The notes under the pieces were generated by a model that worked only from the letters and a program-made list of their open reading frames with translations, had not been told where the DNA came from and ran no database searches. From positions 1 through 26,036 of the IMG/VR virus record IMGVR_UViG_3300021139_000126: DNA of 26,036 nucleotides. One strand, written 5' to 3'. The stretch is from a virus. The first letter of the stretch is position 1; each line of letters starts with the position of its first letter. The position numbers and the translations under genes were made by a program. Positions 20,604 through 26,036 of this stretch are shown here, piece by piece.

Positions 20604-21827
20604 ATGAGCTACTTAGGTTCAAGCAGCACACTATACGATCCAACACGCAACTCACCTAAAACAGCACAAGTATTTTCTGGTGATGGCGTTACTACCGTAT
20701 TTACATTACAGTATTCGGTAGCACAATCTACTGATATTGAAGTTATTGTTGAAAATGTTATTCAACAACCAGATTATGCCTATACTGCAACAGGTAATCT
20801 ACTTACATTTACTGGCACACCAAGACCTGGTACCAATAACATCTATGTTAATTACAATAGAACTGCTGGTCTAACTGGTACTGTACCTGATGGATCTATT
20901 ACAAGTTCTAAGTTAGCAACTAACATTCGTTTATTGGCAACAGACCAATATACAGGTAACGGCTCAGCAACTCAGTTTGCTCTCTCTGATACTCCTGCTG
21001 ATGCAAACTCATTAGTTGTTACTGTTAATGGTGTAACACAATCTGCTCCTGTAAACTATACAACAAGCGGTAACATTATTACTTTCACTTCGGCACCTTT
21101 AGCTGGTGCCAATGTGGTGATTCGTAACTTAGGCTTCAGAACAACATCAACATTGTATGCTTTAAGTGCTGGCACACCAATCGTTCAACCACAGATTACT
21201 GGTGGTACAATCAATCTAGCATCTTCTGTTTCTACAACAAACGGATTCAATGTATACGATTCCACAGGTACTCAATTAAAAGCCGGTATCAATGCAAACA
21301 ATGTGTTTTCTACCGGTAACTTGGTAATGCAAGCTGTAAATTCAATTCAGCTACAGAGTGGTTCTAATACTGCTACAATGCCTGCTGCGGCTGGCACAGT
21401 AATGGTTAGCGGTAATATGCCAGCGTTTAGTGCTTATCAAAGCTCAGCCCAAACAATTACTGGCGGTTCGTTTACTAAAGTTACTTGTCAAACTAAAGAA
21501 TTTGATACTAATTCAAATTATGATAATGCAACTAACTATCGCTTTACTCCTACTGTAGCTGGATATTATCAATTTAACGCCGCATTACAAGTAACAACAA
21601 GTACAAGTACAGGTTTAATTTGTTTTTATAAAAATGGTGCTGAAGTTAAAAGACCAACATATTTGTCGGGTTCTTCTGTAGTAAATAGTACAGGCGGGTC
21701 TGCTTTAATTTATTGCAATGGCTCAACAGACTACATAGAATTTTATGCACTTTTAGGAACAGGACAAGCATTATCTACTAATGTGTTTTCAACTTGGTTT
21801 CAAGGTGTAATGGTAAGGAGTGCATGA
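20604..21827 (+). CDS. Tail fibre/adhesin with C1q-like C-terminal domain
   Basis: 407 aa. Two copies of a fibre N-terminal module are seen: residues about 22-85 (VFSGDGVTTVFTLQYS, then GNLLTFTGTPRPGTNNIYV) and about 113-175 (YTGNGSATQFALSDTP, then NIITFTSAPLAGANVVI). A linker of about 175-270 carries NGFNVYDSTGTQLKAGI-type strand repeats. The last 130 residues have a C1q/TNF-like jelly-roll pattern (FTPTVAGYYQFNAALQV, FYKNGAEVKRPTY, STDYIEFYALLG), which commonly forms trimeric receptor-binding tips. AAGGA at 20594-20598 is well placed before the ATG. A 57-aa gene overlaps its end. The leader and first residues (MSYLG) resemble those of the fibre gene at 25186. Confidence 0.75.
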   Translation: MSYLGSSSTLYDPTRNSPKTAQVFSGDGVTTVFTLQYSVAQSTDIEVIVENVIQQPDYAYTATGNLLTFTGTPRPGTNNIYVNYNRTAGLTGTVPDGSITSSKLATNIRLLATDQYTGNGSATQFALSDTPADANSLVVTVNGVTQSAPVNYTTSGNIITFTSAPLAGANVVIRNLGFRTTSTLYALSAGTPIVQPQITGGTINLASSVSTTNGFNVYDSTGTQLKAGINANNVFSTGNLVMQAVNSIQLQSGSNTATMPAAAGTVMVSGNMPAFSAYQSSAQTITGGSFTKVTCQTKEFDTNSNYDNATNYRFTPTVAGYYQFNAALQVTTSTSTGLICFYKNGAEVKRPTYLSGSSVVNSTGGSALIYCNGSTDYIEFYALLGTGQALSTNVFSTWFQGVMVRSA

Positions 21828-22000
21828 TGACTTTATATGAAAAAATTATTTCTATTTATCCTGAATTGACTTTTGATGAATTTGTATTTGGAACAATTCG
21901 TTTGCAAAACGATTCAGACGGAAAAGGCGATTACATTGCTAAATGGGAACACCCTACACTAGCTAGACCTACAGAAGAACAATTAGCTTCTATTAGTTAG
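21827..22000 (+). CDS. Small protein after the C1q-like fibre; candidate fibre chaperone (XkdW-like)
   Basis: 57 aa. Two adjacent ATGs (21824 and 21827) are possible. The second is preferred because AAGGAG at 21815-21820 is then six bases away, and either one overlaps the fibre stop. The sequence TLYEKIISIYPELTFDEFVF followed by TIRLQNDSDGKGDYIAKWEH and P-T-x-E-Q-L resembles small XkdW-like proteins that I recall next to phage fibre genes. A role in folding or attaching the fibre is inferred only from position and size. It is followed by a TAG stop and then by the octamer of the next cassette. Confidence 0.6.
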   Translation: MTLYEKIISIYPELTFDEFVFGTIRLQNDSDGKGDYIAKWEHPTLARPTEEQLASIS

Positions 22001-22001
22001 T

Positions 22002-22009
22002 AATAAATA
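22002..22009 (+). promoter_or_regulatory. Late-promoter-like octamer AATAAATA before fibre cassette A
   Basis: The octamer begins two bases after the stop of the 57-aa gene and is followed by a 24-base leader, AAGAATAACAACAGAGAATA plus four bases, before the ATG at 22034. Nearly the same leader (GAATAAC and CAGAGAATA elements) precedes the paralogous gene at 23409. Confidence 0.55.
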
Positions 22010-22033
22010 AAAGAATAACAACAGAGAATAACG

Positions 22034-23209
22034 ATGCCATTACAGCAAATAACTCCAACAGATATTACTGGAACACTTACTAATAACGTGGCTTCATCAC
22101 AATTAAGTATTGGTGGTACTGCAATTGGAGCTGGTAATGCTTCTATTATGAAGAATCGCATTATCAATGGTGCGATGGTTATTGACCAAAGAAATGCTGG
22201 TTCGAGTGTAGCTATTACAACAGCAGCACCCTATATTACAGATAGATTTTTTTCTTATGCTTCACAAGCAAGCAAATTAACAGCACAACAAAATGCTGGC
22301 TCAATAACTCCACCAGCGGGATTTACTAATTATCTTGGTTTTACTTCACAGTCAGCATATTCAATCACATCAACAGATATATTTTCAGCCGCACAAAGAA
22401 TAGAAGGTTTTAATACTGCTGATTTAGGATGGGGAACTGCTAACGCTAAAACTGTAACTTTATCTTTTCAAGTGTATTCAAGTCTTACAGGCACTTTTGG
22501 CGGTTCATTACAAAATTCTGCACAAAATCGTAGTTATCCTTTTACTTTTACAGTTTCTTCTGCAAATATTTGGACTTCTATTTCTGTAACTATTGCTGGT
22601 GATACAACTGGTACATGGATAGGTGCTACAAACGGAATTGGTATTCAGCTTAATTTTGGTTTGGGTGTAGGTTCAACATATAGCGGAACTGCTGGTGCAT
22701 GGGCTGGTGCTAATTATTTTGCCCCAACTGGTGCAACATCCGTAGTAGGAACAAGCGGAGCAACTTTCTACATTACTGGTGTTCAACTAGAAGTAGGAAG
22801 TAGTGCTACTGGATTTGAGTATCGTCAGTATGGTCAAGAATTAGCATTGTGTCAGCGTTACTTCAACATATATAAAGGTGGTTATTATGGTGGATTCAAT
22901 ATAACGGGTTCAACTTTTGCATTTGCGTTGTCTGTTCCAGTATCAATGAGAACCTCTCCCACATTTGCAACAAGCATAACTGATTCAAATTTTGTTACTG
23001 CATCCCCTAGTGCCAGTCAATGGGCAATGTATGTTCAAAATAGCGGATGGAGCAGTTATTCAGGCTCAATCAACACACTATCATTAAATGTGCCAGCAAC
23101 TAACAGCACTCAATATAACCTCGGAACATACGGCTGTACTTTGGGTTCGGCATTTACTTCATTTTTGCTTGGCGCAAACGTTTATTTTTCTTTTACTGCG
23201 GAGTTATAA
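22034..23209 (+). CDS. Tail fibre/adhesin, KNRIINGAMVIDQRNAG family, copy A
   Basis: 391 aa. After a 20-residue N-terminus (PLQQITPTDITGTLT) comes the shared block SSQLSIGGTAIGAG and NRIINGAMVIDQRNAG (residues 41-56). A beta-rich carbohydrate-binding-like domain follows, with FTNYLGFTSQSAYSITS, KTVTLSFQVYSSLTGTFGG and TWTSISV-like strands, ending at FYITGVQLEVGSSATGFEY (about residue 245-263). The last 125 residues differ completely from copy B except for the final F-T-A-E-L, so this is probably the variable receptor-binding tip. This family is common in fibres of aquatic phages and prophages. A 52-aa gene follows after one base. Attachment to a particular virion structure is not shown by the sequence. 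Confidence 0.75.
   Translation: MPLQQITPTDITGTLTNNVASSQLSIGGTAIGAGNASIMKNRIINGAMVIDQRNAGSSVAITTAAPYITDRFFSYASQASKLTAQQNAGSITPPAGFTNYLGFTSQSAYSITSTDIFSAAQRIEGFNTADLGWGTANAKTVTLSFQVYSSLTGTFGGSLQNSAQNRSYPFTFTVSSANIWTSISVTIAGDTTGTWIGATNGIGIQLNFGLGVGSTYSGTAGAWAGANYFAPTGATSVVGTSGATFYITGVQLEVGSSATGFEYRQYGQELALCQRYFNIYKGGYYGGFNITGSTFAFALSVPVSMRTSPTFATSITDSNFVTASPSASQWAMYVQNSGWSSYSGSINTLSLNVPATNSTQYNLGTYGCTLGSAFTSFLLGANVYFSFTAEL
22094..22201 (+). repeat. Direct repeat 1, copy A (pairs with 23580-23687)
   Basis: These 108 bases differ from bases 23580-23687 at only three positions by my reading, all A/G or T/C changes. They encode the SSQLSIGGTAIGAG to DQRNAG block of both fibre paralogues. Such identity at DNA level inside otherwise diverged genes suggests recent exchange or duplication. 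Confidence 0.85.
22751..22822 (+). repeat. Direct repeat 2, copy A (pairs with 24231-24302)
   Basis: These 72 bases differ from bases 24231-24302 at two positions by my reading. They encode the FYITGVQLEVGSSATGFEY segment. Sequence similarity ends abruptly just after it, at the border to the variable C-terminal tips. Confidence 0.85.
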
Positions 23210-23210
23210 G

Positions 23211-23369
23211 ATGATAACCAAAGCACAATTAATTCCTTTTAGTTCAAGCGTTTTTGTTTGGCATGGTAGCCAAAAGTTATGTGTGCCAGCGGACACAGAC
23301 AACACCGATTACCAAGCCTACCTAAAATGGGTAGCTGAAGGCAATACACCAACTCCAGCAGACGAATAA
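23211..23369 (+). CDS. Small protein after fibre copy A; candidate fibre chaperone
   Basis: 52 aa, starting at the ATG one base after the fibre stop, with GGAG at 23200-23203 seven bases before it. The N-terminal half (MITKAQLIPFSSSVFVWHGS) differs from its counterpart at 24665. The C-terminal half, DNTDYQAYLKWVAEGNTP followed by TPADE, is nearly identical. This ending is familiar from small proteins next to phage fibre genes, some called tail fibre assembly proteins. The pairing of one such gene with each fibre suggests a folding or assembly partner specific to that fibre, which is inference. Its TAA is part of the next AATAAATA octamer. Confidence 0.62.
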   Translation: MITKAQLIPFSSSVFVWHGSQKLCVPADTDNTDYQAYLKWVAEGNTPTPADE

Positions 23370-23373
23370 ATAA
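23301..23373 (+). repeat. Direct repeat 3, copy A (pairs with 24758-24830)
   Basis: About 73 bases covering the NTDYQAYL to PADE coding end, the stop and the following AATAAATA octamer; bases 24758-24830 are the closely similar second copy. The repeat therefore links the end of one cassette to the promoter of the next and could guide recombination between cassettes. Confidence 0.75.
23365..23372 (+). promoter_or_regulatory. Late-promoter-like octamer AATAAATA before fibre cassette B
   Basis: Overlaps the stop codon of the 52-aa gene. A 36-base leader with repeated GAATAAC elements leads to the ATG at 23409, much as in cassette A. Confidence 0.55.
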
Positions 23374-23408
23374 ACCAATAGAATAACAAAGAATAACAGA
23401 GAATATCA

Positions 23409-24665
23409 ATGAGCTTAACACAAGTAGCAACGAATATGATTTCTGGAGTACCTATTCAGGTCTCTGGAAATACTACTATAATTAGTTCAAATAATACCAC
23501 AGCGATTACTCTGAATGGTACACAGAATGCTACGTTTGCCAATACAGTATCAGCCAATCTATCAGCAACAACTGTAACATCATCACAATTAAGTATTGGT
23601 GGTACTGCAATTGGAGCTGGTGATGCTTCTATTATGAAGAACCGCATCATCAATGGTGCGATGGTTATTGACCAAAGAAATGCTGGTGCTTCTACAACTT
23701 TAACAACTTCTGCTTACACTTTAGACAGATGGTATTCATATACAACTCAATCTTCTAAATTTAGTATTCAACAAAATGCTGGTTCAGTTACACCACCAGT
23801 AGGGTTTACTAATTACATCGGTGCAACTTCTTTATCTGCTTATAGCATTACATCAGGCGATTACTTTTCAATTATGCAAAGGGTTGAAGGATACAATGTT
23901 GCCGACTTAGGATGGGGTTCTGCTAATGCCAAAACTGTAACTTTATCGTTTCAAGTCTATTCTTCATTAACTGGCACTTTTGGTGGCTCATTAAGAAACT
24001 CTGCTGGTAATCGTTCTTATCCATTTACTTACACAGTATCTTCTGCAAACACTTGGACTTCAATCTCTGTAACTATTGCTGGAGATACATCAGGAACTTG
24101 GTTAACAACTAATGGTATTGGTGTTGATGTGTTGTTTAGTCTAGGTACTGGTTCATCTTTTTTAGGTACGGCTGGTGCTTGGGCTGGTGCAAACTACTTG
24201 GGTGCTACTGGTCAAGTAAACATGGTCGCTACAAACGGAGCAACCTTCTACATTACTGGTGTTCAACTAGAAGTAGGAAGTAGTGCTACTGGATTTGAGT
24301 ATGTAAATTATCAGGCTAGCCTAGCTAACTGTATGCGTTATTACTACAAATTGCAATTAGGTGATTATAGTGCAATTAACGGATTTGTAGATAATTCTAC
24401 TAATGCTATTTTTTATTATCAATTTCCTGTCCCTATGCGTTCAGCACCAACATTAGGGACAAGCGGAACGGCTGGTGATTATGGAATTAGATGGCCCTCA
24501 AACACTACTGCATTAAACGCAGTCCCAGCTATTATTGGCACAGGTGCTATTGGTTCTACTCGTATTCAAGGCGTTGTAGCAAGTGGGTTAACTGTTGGTC
24601 AAGGCTGTGGATTGGTTTCATTTAACAATACATCAATTTATTTAGCTTTTTCTTCGGAGTTATGA
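23409..24665 (+). CDS. Tail fibre/adhesin, KNRIINGAMVIDQRNAG family, copy B
   Basis: 418 aa, a paralogue of the gene at 22034. The N-terminus is longer and different (SLTQVATNMISGVPIQVSGN, then NTTAITLNGTQNATFANTV), so it may use another attachment site or an added shaft repeat. The shared block starts at SSQLSIGGTAIGAG, with NRIINGAMVIDQRNAG at residues 78-93, and the central beta domain follows (KTVTLSFQVYSSLTGTFGG, GDTSGTWLTTNGIGV, FYITGVQLEVGSSATGFEY). The last 120 residues (MRYYYKLQLGDYSAINGFVD and on) are unlike copy A apart from the final F-S-S-E-L, as expected for a swapped receptor-binding tip. GAGAAT before the ATG is the only weak ribosome site. The stop overlaps the next gene. Confidence 0.75.
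   Translation: MSLTQVATNMISGVPIQVSGNTTIISSNNTTAITLNGTQNATFANTVSANLSATTVTSSQLSIGGTAIGAGDASIMKNRIINGAMVIDQRNAGASTTLTTSAYTLDRWYSYTTQSSKFSIQQNAGSVTPPVGFTNYIGATSLSAYSITSGDYFSIMQRVEGYNVADLGWGSANAKTVTLSFQVYSSLTGTFGGSLRNSAGNRSYPFTYTVSSANTWTSISVTIAGDTSGTWLTTNGIGVDVLFSLGTGSSFLGTAGAWAGANYLGATGQVNMVATNGATFYITGVQLEVGSSATGFEYVNYQASLANCMRYYYKLQLGDYSAINGFVDNSTNAIFYYQFPVPMRSAPTLGTSGTAGDYGIRWPSNTTALNAVPAIIGTGAIGSTRIQGVVASGLTVGQGCGLVSFNNTSIYLAFSSEL
23580..23687 (+). repeat. Direct repeat 1, copy B (pairs with 22094-22201)
   Basis: Second copy of the 108-base block, three mismatches from copy A by my reading; it lies 1486 bases downstream in the same orientation. Confidence 0.85.
24231..24302 (+). repeat. Direct repeat 2, copy B (pairs with 22751-22822)
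   Basis: Second copy of the 72-base block at the border between the central domain and the variable tip; two mismatches from copy A by my reading. Confidence 0.85.
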
Positions 24666-24826
24666 TGACTGTTTACAAATTAATTAAAAATCCTGACAAC
24701 GGACAAGATTGTGGTGTTTTGCGTGATGGTAAAGATTCCATTCCTTTTGCACCTGATAACACAGACTACCAAGCCTACCTTGCATGGGTAGCTGAAGGTA
24801 ATACACCATTACCAGCGGATGAATAA
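24665..24826 (+). CDS. Small protein after fibre copy B; candidate fibre chaperone
   Basis: 53 aa. ATGs at 24662 and 24665 are both in frame and both overlap the fibre stop; 24665 is chosen because GGAG at 24656-24659 is then five bases away. The N-terminal half (TVYKLIKNPDNGQDCGVLRD) is unlike the 52-aa protein of cassette A. The C-terminal half, DNTDYQAYLAWVAEGNTP followed by LPADE, matches it almost fully. The conserved half may therefore bind the conserved part of the fibres and the variable half the variable tip, which is inference. The stop overlaps the AATAAATA octamer that precedes the endonuclease remnant. Confidence 0.62.
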   Translation: MTVYKLIKNPDNGQDCGVLRDGKDSIPFAPDNTDYQAYLAWVAEGNTPLPADE

Positions 24827-24830
24827 ATAA
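24758..24830 (+). repeat. Direct repeat 3, copy B (pairs with 23301-23373)
   Basis: Second copy of the 3' end of the small gene together with the stop and octamer. After this copy the expected fibre leader is replaced by an endonuclease gene. Confidence 0.75.
24822..24829 (+). promoter_or_regulatory. Late-promoter-like octamer AATAAATA before the endonuclease remnant
   Basis: Overlaps the stop of the 53-aa gene, as in the other cassettes, and ends seven bases before the ATG at 24837. It was probably the promoter of the fibre gene now at 25186 before the endonuclease gene was inserted between them. Confidence 0.5.
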
Positions 24831-24836
24831 AAAATA

Positions 24837-25189
24837 ATGGTTTCACACTTATATCGTATAGAGAATAAACAGACTGGTGAGTATTACATCGGTAAGCACA
24901 ATGGTGTGGATCAGAAAAAACCAGATGGTAGATTGTATTGGGGTTCTGGTAAGAGGATTAAAAGTCAAGTTAAAAAATATGGTGTAGAGAATTTTACATA
25001 CACCATTTTAGTGATTGCTGAATCGGATTATATCTATGATTTAGAAAAAAGAAAGAAAAGAAAGGTTTAACCATTGGTTATACCTTCATAAATAATACTA
25101 AAGAAACAAAGTTTGTACCACCTGAAAAATTACAAGAATATTTAAATTCAGGTTGGATAAAAGGACAATTAAAAAGGAATAAATTTTGA
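24837..25189 (+). pseudogene. Broken GIY-YIG homing endonuclease gene
   Basis: The first frame (24837-25070, 77 aa) has the GIY-YIG nuclease start: HLYRIENKQTGEYYIGKH with YIG at residues 17-19, then WGSGKRIKSQVKKYGVENF and a possible catalytic Glu at residue 70. It ends early at a TAA after an A/G-rich tract. A second frame, shifted by -1 and readable from about 25064 to the TGA at 25187-25189, gives IGYTFINNTKETKFVPPEKL followed by QEYLNSGWIKGQLKRNKF. That is the kind of C-terminal DNA-binding tail seen in longer phage homing endonucleases. The middle of the protein is missing, so the gene has an internal deletion or frameshift and is probably dead, although a 77-aa fragment could be made. 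No canonical slippery heptamer in the right frame was found. The stop overlaps the TTG start of the next gene by two bases. Confidence 0.75.
25087..25094 (+). promoter_or_regulatory. Possible late-promoter octamer CATAAATA inside the endonuclease remnant
   Basis: Fits NATAAATA and lies about 90 bases before the TTG start at 25186, so it could drive the short fibre gene now cut off from its original promoter. The match lies inside former coding sequence and could be chance. Confidence 0.3.
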
Positions 25190-25608
25190 GCTATCTTGGT
25201 GCGAACCCAGCTTACGGACTCTTTTCCACGGATTACTTTTCAGGTAATGGCTCAACTACGACCTTTAATTTAACCAAAAATACTGGTAACGAAGCTTCTT
25301 TAATTGTTTCTATTTCTGGCGTTGTTCAACAAGCGACTACGTATACACTAAATAACGGACAGTTGATTTTCTCTCAAGTTCCACCTAATGGTACTAACAA
25401 TATTGAGGTGCGTTATCTTGGTGAGCGTGTTATGGTAAATCCTGCATTATCTGCTGATCCATATGGCATCGTCAGGATTAATTCAAACGTATTAAATCAG
25501 AACACAATTATTGGTGCCGGTTACAATGCAAGTTCAGCTGGCCCATTACAAATTGCAAACAACACCGTAGTAACGATTACAACTGGAAGTTATTGGAAAA
25601 TATTTTGA
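25186..25608 (+). CDS. Short tail fibre protein with TTG start
   Basis: 140 aa. Residues 1-82 are the same fibre N-terminal module as in the gene at 20604: MSYLG at the start, YFSGNGSTTTFNLTKNTG, then GQLIFSQVPPNGTNNIEVRY. The C-terminal part (NVLNQNTIIGAGYNASSAGP, then VTITTGSYWKIF) resembles the closing segment of many phage fibres and virion proteins. There is no shaft or large tip. The start is TTG at 25186; AAGGAATAA upstream matches the leader AAGGAATAAC-ATG of the 20604 gene, so an ATG was probably lost when the endonuclease gene joined here. The next in-frame ATG is at residue 82, inside the module boundary. Endonuclease genes touch both ends (overlaps of two to three bases and one base), so it may be a shortened relic or a small baseplate plug. 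Confidence 0.65.
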   Translation: MSYLGANPAYGLFSTDYFSGNGSTTTFNLTKNTGNEASLIVSISGVVQQATTYTLNNGQLIFSQVPPNGTNNIEVRYLGERVMVNPALSADPYGIVRINSNVLNQNTIIGAGYNASSAGPLQIANNTVVTITTGSYWKIF

Positions 25609-26036
25609 TGAATCATTATGTTTACCTGATTGAACAAAAAAATGCTTTGGTTGGAGAACCTAAGCAATATATTGGTGTTCGGTCATGTGAAGGTAACATT
25701 GGTGAGGATAAGTATATGAGTTCATCTAAATATGTTAAAGAAGCAATCAAAAAACATGGTATTGAGCAATTTAATAAGATTATATTAAAAAGATTTAATA
25801 GTCGTAGAGAAGCAATGGATTATGAAATTGAATTACATGAAAGATTTAATGTTGTAGGCAATAATTTTTTTTTCAATAAAGTAAAACAAACTACTGATAG
25901 TTTTGCTTGTGGTCCTGGTGAATTAAATCCATTTTATGGAAGAAAACACACAGAAGAATACAAGAAAAGAATGAGTGCTTTATTGAAAACAAAAGATTGT
26001 AGGCAAAAAGTTAATAATTTAGGTAAAAAGTTTCCA
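25608..26036 (+). CDS. GIY-YIG homing endonuclease with NUMOD3 motif (3' end outside window)
   Basis: 143 codons are visible with no stop before the window ends. The start ATG overlaps the fibre stop (TGATG). Residues 4-25 give HYVYLIEQ and QYIGVRSC, the two halves of the GIY-YIG core, with R25 as the expected catalytic Arg. EDKYMSSSKYVKEAIKKHGI (33-52) and DYEIELHERFNV (71-82) supply the rest of the domain, including a candidate metal-binding Glu at 73 or 75. Residues 107-122 (NPFYGRKHTEEYKKRM) are a NUMOD3 DNA-binding motif. Such free-standing enzymes cut related phage genomes that lack the gene and so copy themselves. A run of nine T at 25865-25873 lies in the frame. Unlike the upstream remnant, this copy looks intact so far. 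Confidence 0.88.
   Translation, partial: MNHYVYLIEQKNALVGEPKQYIGVRSCEGNIGEDKYMSSSKYVKEAIKKHGIEQFNKIILKRFNSRREAMDYEIELHERFNVVGNNFFFNKVKQTTDSFACGPGELNPFYGRKHTEEYKKRMSALLKTKDCRQKVNNLGKKFP

Follow-up and report, generated by a model that had tools for sequence, protein, structure and literature searches.

Fibre tips and the front half of a small downstream partner protein tend to be exchanged together in the tail-fibre cassettes of T4-like and other phages

The DNA analyzed here (the window; 26,036 nucleotides, positions 1 to 26,036 of IMG/VR virus record IMGVR_UViG_3300021139_000126) spans baseplate and tail-fibre genes of a freshwater T4-like phage; three fibre genes, each with a small partner gene, lie downstream of the wedge and hub genes. 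Matches to PHROGs 219, 438, 261, 430, and 694 identify T4-type wedge and hub baseplate proteins and place the phage among the T4-like myoviruses. Our subject is the relation between the variable fibre tips and these small partners, of which the front half appears to travel with the tip. A preliminary description, made from the letters of the window, had noted that a small gene follows each fibre at once, and this is so for all three (fibres 20604-21827, 22034-23209, and 23409-24665, on the plus strand, as are all cassette parts given below). It had listed three consecutive cassettes of fibre and small gene, of which unit 1 is of another type. Fibre 1 (PHROG 18673, tail fibre, 9e-12; its C terminus matches PHROG 15750 and, weakly, C1q) ends in a C1q-like tip (about 21423-21824), and its 57-residue partner (21827-22000) is of the XkdW type (PF09636, 9e-6).

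Fibres 2 and 3 both match PHROG 4492 (6e-41 and 1e-48, respectively) and consist of a core that is predicted to resemble carbohydrate-binding module (CBM) family CBM4 and a variable tip (22862-23206 and 24342-24662) terminating in EL. Their partners, of 52 residues (23211-23369) and 53 residues (24665-24826; 54 residues if translation starts at the ATG at 24662), match PHROG 20370, for which no function is annotated, and neither matched a Pfam or NCBIfam family. Each partner can be divided into an N-half that would be matched to the tip (23211-23300 in partner 2 and 24665-24757 in partner 3) and a generic C-half (23301-23369, with the helix NTDYQAYLKW, and 24758-24826). A further short fibre-like gene at 25186-25608 (PHROG 5342/18673), with the C-terminal end TITTGSYWKIF, lacks a small partner.

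Units 2 and 3 were compared by DNA alignment, as the preliminary description had proposed, and both near-identical fibre blocks that it reported were found. Block 1 of fibre 2, which encodes NRIINGAM (22094-22201), has its copy at about 23580-23687 in fibre 3; aligned somewhat further, 22094-22221 and 23580-23707 are 91% identical over 128 nucleotides and about 97% identical over the first ~108. Block 2 (QLEVGSSATGFEY; about 22757-22823 in fibre 2 and 24237-24303 in fibre 3) differs by roughly one mismatch. Likewise, the small genes have in common a 3' block of 77 nucleotides with 84% identity, in keeping with the reported sharing of their C-terminal halves. The similarity exceeds chance: synonymous codons of fibres 2 and 3 are identical in 94 to 95% of cases within the two fibre blocks and in 58% within the core between them, and the blocks were therefore shared recently as DNA. 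Such homogenization within a genome was clear in this window alone and was not seen in other multi-cassette contigs, so that we rejected it as a general feature of these blocks. The tips, which had been said not to align, do so weakly (z = 7 over shuffles), with LAxCxRY, VPxMRxxPT, and YxxFxxEL as anchors. Hence, tips 2 and 3 are diverged versions of one EL-ending tip type.

Relatives were collected in two scans of viral contigs, which yielded 139 fibre genes with the motif NRIINGxM in 89 distinct cassettes (numbered loci, L, below). Here the conserved blocks do occur with other tips in related metagenomic phages, and the cassettes form a mosaic. A cultured relative, Methylophilales phage MEP401, also has this gene pair (gp53/gp52). 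A small gene was present after every fibre with enough downstream DNA, its start nearly always lying between -25 and +10 nucleotides from the fibre stop. A profile search over the open reading frames (ORFs) of the fetched loci gave 157 distinct ORFs with the small domain, and 144 of these lie directly downstream of a fibre-like ORF, the gene position typical of Tfa; the remaining 13 mostly have an extended start that reaches back into the fibre. Almost all partner-bearing fibres (140 of 144) have EL as their C-terminal end. The S74 self-chaperone motif, called with a simple pattern that makes the contrast supportive rather than strict, was found in none of these 144 fibres, and none of 16 S74 fibres is followed by a small gene. 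The S74 fibres without a small partner sit in the same arrays (L169, 4536-5813, for example, and 15 others). All 32 C1q-tip fibres examined are followed by an XkdW-type partner; at L178-L257 this gene of 50 to 60 residues is highly constant, whereas the partners of EL tips are variable. In cellular genomes the sole match to fibre 3 was L258, on contig CAIUOC010000087.1 of a Saccharibacteria metagenome-assembled genome, which has the same cassette. Phage-like structural ORFs adjoin this cassette and the contig is therefore probably a phage that was binned by mistake, so that an assignment of the host from cellular genomes was rejected.

A direct instance of exchange concerns fibre 2, whose tip had one relative in the IMG/VR scan. 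L165 has a tip with 73% identity over 123 residues, but the core that carries it (GMRNRLINGNFNFWQRGTS...) is unrelated. After this tip comes MITKTQLIPFSSSVFVWYDDQKLCVPAD..., almost the same as the unusual partner 2 N-half, and then the octamer AATAAATA. For the core, DNA identity between L165 and the window is 0.47 to 0.54, compared with 0.67 to 0.77 for the tip and 0.88 for the N-half. The contig of L165 is itself T4-like, with a gp6-like protein 40% identical to that of the window, and its core, used as a scan query, returned only seven loci. A second module, in L005, L011, L046, and L070, likewise keeps tip and N-half together while core and C-half differ, and occurs in contigs with different neighbours. 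The tip of fibre 3 has relatives (L004 and L055) whose partners have similar N-halves.

To go beyond single cases, each of the 89 cassettes was split into core, tip, partner N-half, and partner C-half, and these parts were compared by partial rank Mantel tests. Tip and N-half were linked (partial r = 0.17 to 0.21, P ≤ 0.001), so that the partner does have a variable N-terminal part paired with the fibre, and the link persisted when only mutually unlike tips were used and when lengths were controlled. No link was found between tip and C-half, tip and core, core and N-half, core and C-half, or N-half and C-half. In a nearest-neighbour test, the best tip match went with an N-half whose similarity ranked at the 66th percentile (null, 51 ± 3), and the best N-half match went with a tip at the 72nd percentile. 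The effect is thus clear but moderate, and it is not absolute. An association of TGxEL tips with partners that lack IP (Fisher P = 0.0017) used classes defined post hoc and is not counted. Together, the linkage over the cassettes and the case of L165 support the proposal of a joint exchange of a tip and its small partner's front half. Tips and partners fixed in all related genomes would have spoken against that idea; they are not fixed, and the idea survives.

The joints of the exchanged segment can be located from the conservation of the DNA. Mean identity between cassettes is 0.75 to 0.82 in the QLEVGS block, falls to about 0.31 in the tip, reaches 0.52 at the fibre end and 0.30 in the N-half, and is 0.72 in the NTDYQ block. 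In the QLE block, 57% of the pairs of cassettes have an identical run of 20 nucleotides in common; the share is 29% in the C-half, 4% at the fibre/partner junction, and less than 1% in the tip and the N-half. Thus, the exchange unit crosses the gene border and comprises the tip and the partner N-half between two conserved DNA blocks; in unit 2 its upstream edge is fibre block 2 and its downstream edge is the partner C-half. Homologous exchange within the QLEVGS and NTDYQ blocks would replace tip and N-half in one step and leave both genes working, and such exchange is presumably the cause of the mosaic.

What the small protein does must be judged from its relatives. Its domain occurs alone (about 47 to 60 residues) or at the head of longer C-domains. 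In T7-like phages of Pseudomonas putida, a protein of 123 residues joins it to a tail-fibre-assembly C terminus (PHROG 4628, 1.5e-4, and PHROG 188, 4e-4, both weak), and other longer relatives have weak C-terminal matches as well (L156 to PF16778, 0.0019; L150 to DUF4376, 0.0015). Gp27 of phage V22 is a fibre chaperone needed for function, with DUF4376 proteins among its relatives (PMC7289586). At L158 (2366-2854), the small partner after a tip like that of fibre 3 is replaced by a protein of 162 residues with a DUF4376 C-domain. A structure model of the long relative L173 (pLDDT, 89) shows the small domain as three strands and a helix, with further helices after it; compared with models of viral proteins, it matched only uncharacterized phage proteins. 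Partners 2 and 3 themselves have one short helix instead of a conserved helical C-domain for trimerization, and a larger domain is present only in the longer relatives. In L004, one of the natural in-frame pairs, a read-through model of fibre into partner gave a core like the carbohydrate-binding modules CBM4, CBM11, and CBM22. This single-chain model was not taken as proof of contact between fibre and partner, because the covalent link forces proximity and confidence in the partner is too low.

The preliminary description had each of units 2 and 3 open with an octamer and a GAATAAC-rich leader. Both elements are present, with the late-promoter-like octamer AATAAATA at 22002-22009 for unit 2 and at 23365-23372 for unit 3 (both on the plus strand), but the latter overlaps the stop of partner 2, and the octamer is not specific to the cassettes because another copy, at 24822, precedes a homing-endonuclease ORF. 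In T4-like phages such octamers are T4-type late promoters. The sequence NATAAATA is not enriched overall (12 observed, 14 expected) but has a strand bias of 11:1 toward the coding strand, and 7 of the 11 plus-strand copies are followed by a start within 45 nucleotides (P = 4e-8; these seven include two overlapping copies). Given this position before starts, the octamers are predicted promoters, and it is plausible that the cassettes are separately promoted. Related cassettes from other types of phage lack the octamer; it follows only 3 of the 89 cassettes and was ruled out as a mark of all such cassettes.

Homing-endonuclease genes lie next to several of these cassettes. In the window, a GIY-YIG ORF of 77 residues (24837-25189; PF19835) stands right after partner 3 and is followed by an apparent C-terminal remnant in another frame (TFINNTKETKFVPPEKLQEYLNSGWIKGQLKRNKF), so that this is probably a broken gene; a second GIY-YIG/NUMOD3 ORF (25593-26036) reaches the window end. 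Homing-endonuclease-like ORFs occur after 5 of 79 cassettes. At L091 (4431-5123) an HNH/NUMOD3 ORF after the small partner ends in residues (AYLKWVSEGNTPDPADEVTV) that equal the C-half of another partner, as if a replacement joint lay at DYQ|AYLKW; an intron in the small gene was considered at this locus and discarded for want of an Rfam hit.

Taken together, these observations make it probable that in each unit the fibre gene is tightly paired with the gene for a minimal assembly factor, whose N-half, in units 2 and 3, is specific for the tip and whose C-half is generic. The N-half, with its short strands, would bind the fibre tip and guide its folding, while the C-half, one helix with the sequence NTDYQAYLxWxxEGN, would act independently of the tip, probably in an oligomer contact. 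The proposal that the small proteins are tip-matched folding factors therefore keeps the support of context, namely, the pairing, the fusions to chaperone-type domains, and the absence of the S74 motif, and on these grounds the partner is likely a chaperone, but a search for its fold in the PDB found no chaperone. More tentatively, we suggest a plug-in unit that is widespread in environmental phages, consisting of a tip and the matching half of a 50-residue factor with joints at QLEVGS and NTDYQAYLxW; T4-like phages and phages unrelated to them may exchange it, and the generic fibre core and partner half would serve as docking ends.

Several results weigh against a matched assembly factor. The loci L098 and L043 have the same N-half with unlike tips, so that the linkage is not absolute, and the position of tip and N-half between two blocks, with less shared DNA at the junction, could explain part of it. 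The C-domain matches of the longer relatives are below Pfam cut-offs, except for DUF4376 in L158, the N-part of which has no shown match to the small domain. The read-through model of L004 has low confidence for the partner. The L173 model gave no significant fold match in the PDB, neither to Mu Tfa (5YVQ) nor to Pam3 gp25, so that structure does not connect it with Tfa; when PDB sequences were searched, the small-protein profile and the long relatives likewise hit nothing. We therefore do not claim membership of the Tfa family but only that the small protein works like Tfa.

If tip and N-half moved together merely because both lie between shared DNA, no matching would be needed and the job of the small protein could be unrelated to the tip. 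The two blocks do flank exactly this segment, and since an identical 20-nucleotide run spans the junction in so few pairs relative to the blocks, breaks there may just be rare. Even so, we consider hitchhiking alone rather unlikely, because the linkage holds between very unlike tips, because tip classes go with distinct partner families (C1q with XkdW and EL tips with the NTDYQ type), and because the fusion and S74 patterns point to fibre assembly. That the variable N-half tracks the variable tip would also be expected if the small protein were a structural cap or second adhesin, kept on the virion tip and helping in receptor binding, and Mu Tfa, as cited in PMC10579305, remains attached to its fibre and possibly contacts the receptor. 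Such a role seems improbable, however, as gp25 of Pam3 went undetected in virions (PMC9608196) and relatives have the small domain joined to C-domains of the assembly-chaperone type.

The preliminary description had further proposed that the locus stores alternative receptor-binding ends. An archive of tips, from which recombination would supply a single active fibre in the manner of the G segment switch of Mu, might account for the near homogenization of the two blocks of fibres 2 and 3 at synonymous sites, a pattern expected from recent exchange or gene conversion. However, each of the three units is complete, two of them with promoter-like octamers, and homogenization of this kind is missing from other multi-cassette contigs. 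Neither a recombinase, among the ORFs scanned, nor good inverted repeats were found in the window, which is a fragment; on this basis, a switch by inversion or phase variation was rejected as not supported. We consider an archive very improbable and read the three units as three working fibres.

If the partner is indeed a tip-matched assembly factor, an orphan family of ~50-residue genes that follow fibres in many phages gains a hypothesis of function, and the joints mark where nature connects receptor-binding tips so that folding persists. Likewise, the pairing of assembly factor and tip becomes a question for metagenomic sequence and then for bench work with the small proteins.

The partner is best read as a minimal assembly factor, matched to the tip, that would act in the manner of Tfa or Pam3 gp25. 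In Mu, fibre tip and assembly protein come as a pair, and Tfa is cited as modular in the literature. The same pairing is seen here, but within the window fragment there is no DNA invertase and there are no inverted repeats of the G segment type, and since the joint falls within the small gene, only the N-half travels with the tip. T-even gp37/gp38 adhesins have conserved segments between hypervariable ones, which may serve as exchange joints in a similar manner; these are different proteins, and relatives of gp38 were not found here. In Pam3 gp24/gp25, the partner gene also follows the fibre, and gp25 has a variable N-domain (residues 1 to 55) on the distal fibre end and a conserved helical C-domain for trimerization (PMC9608196). 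However, the latter alone has 100 residues in a protein of 162, whereas the partners described here have ~50 residues in all and one helix, with no match to gp25 in sequence or PDB fold. A fibre and downstream chaperone common to distant phages are also known from gp26/gp27 of Alteromonas phage V22 and the A5 modules (PMC7289586, PMC10579305), but there whole fibre/chaperone modules are shared, as opposed to a tip with half a partner. Finally, the families matched by the partners themselves, PHROG 20370/34019 (partners 2 and 3 match PHROG 20370) and Pfam XkdW (PF09636; partner 1), carry no function annotation, and it is for these that we propose a role in fibre assembly.

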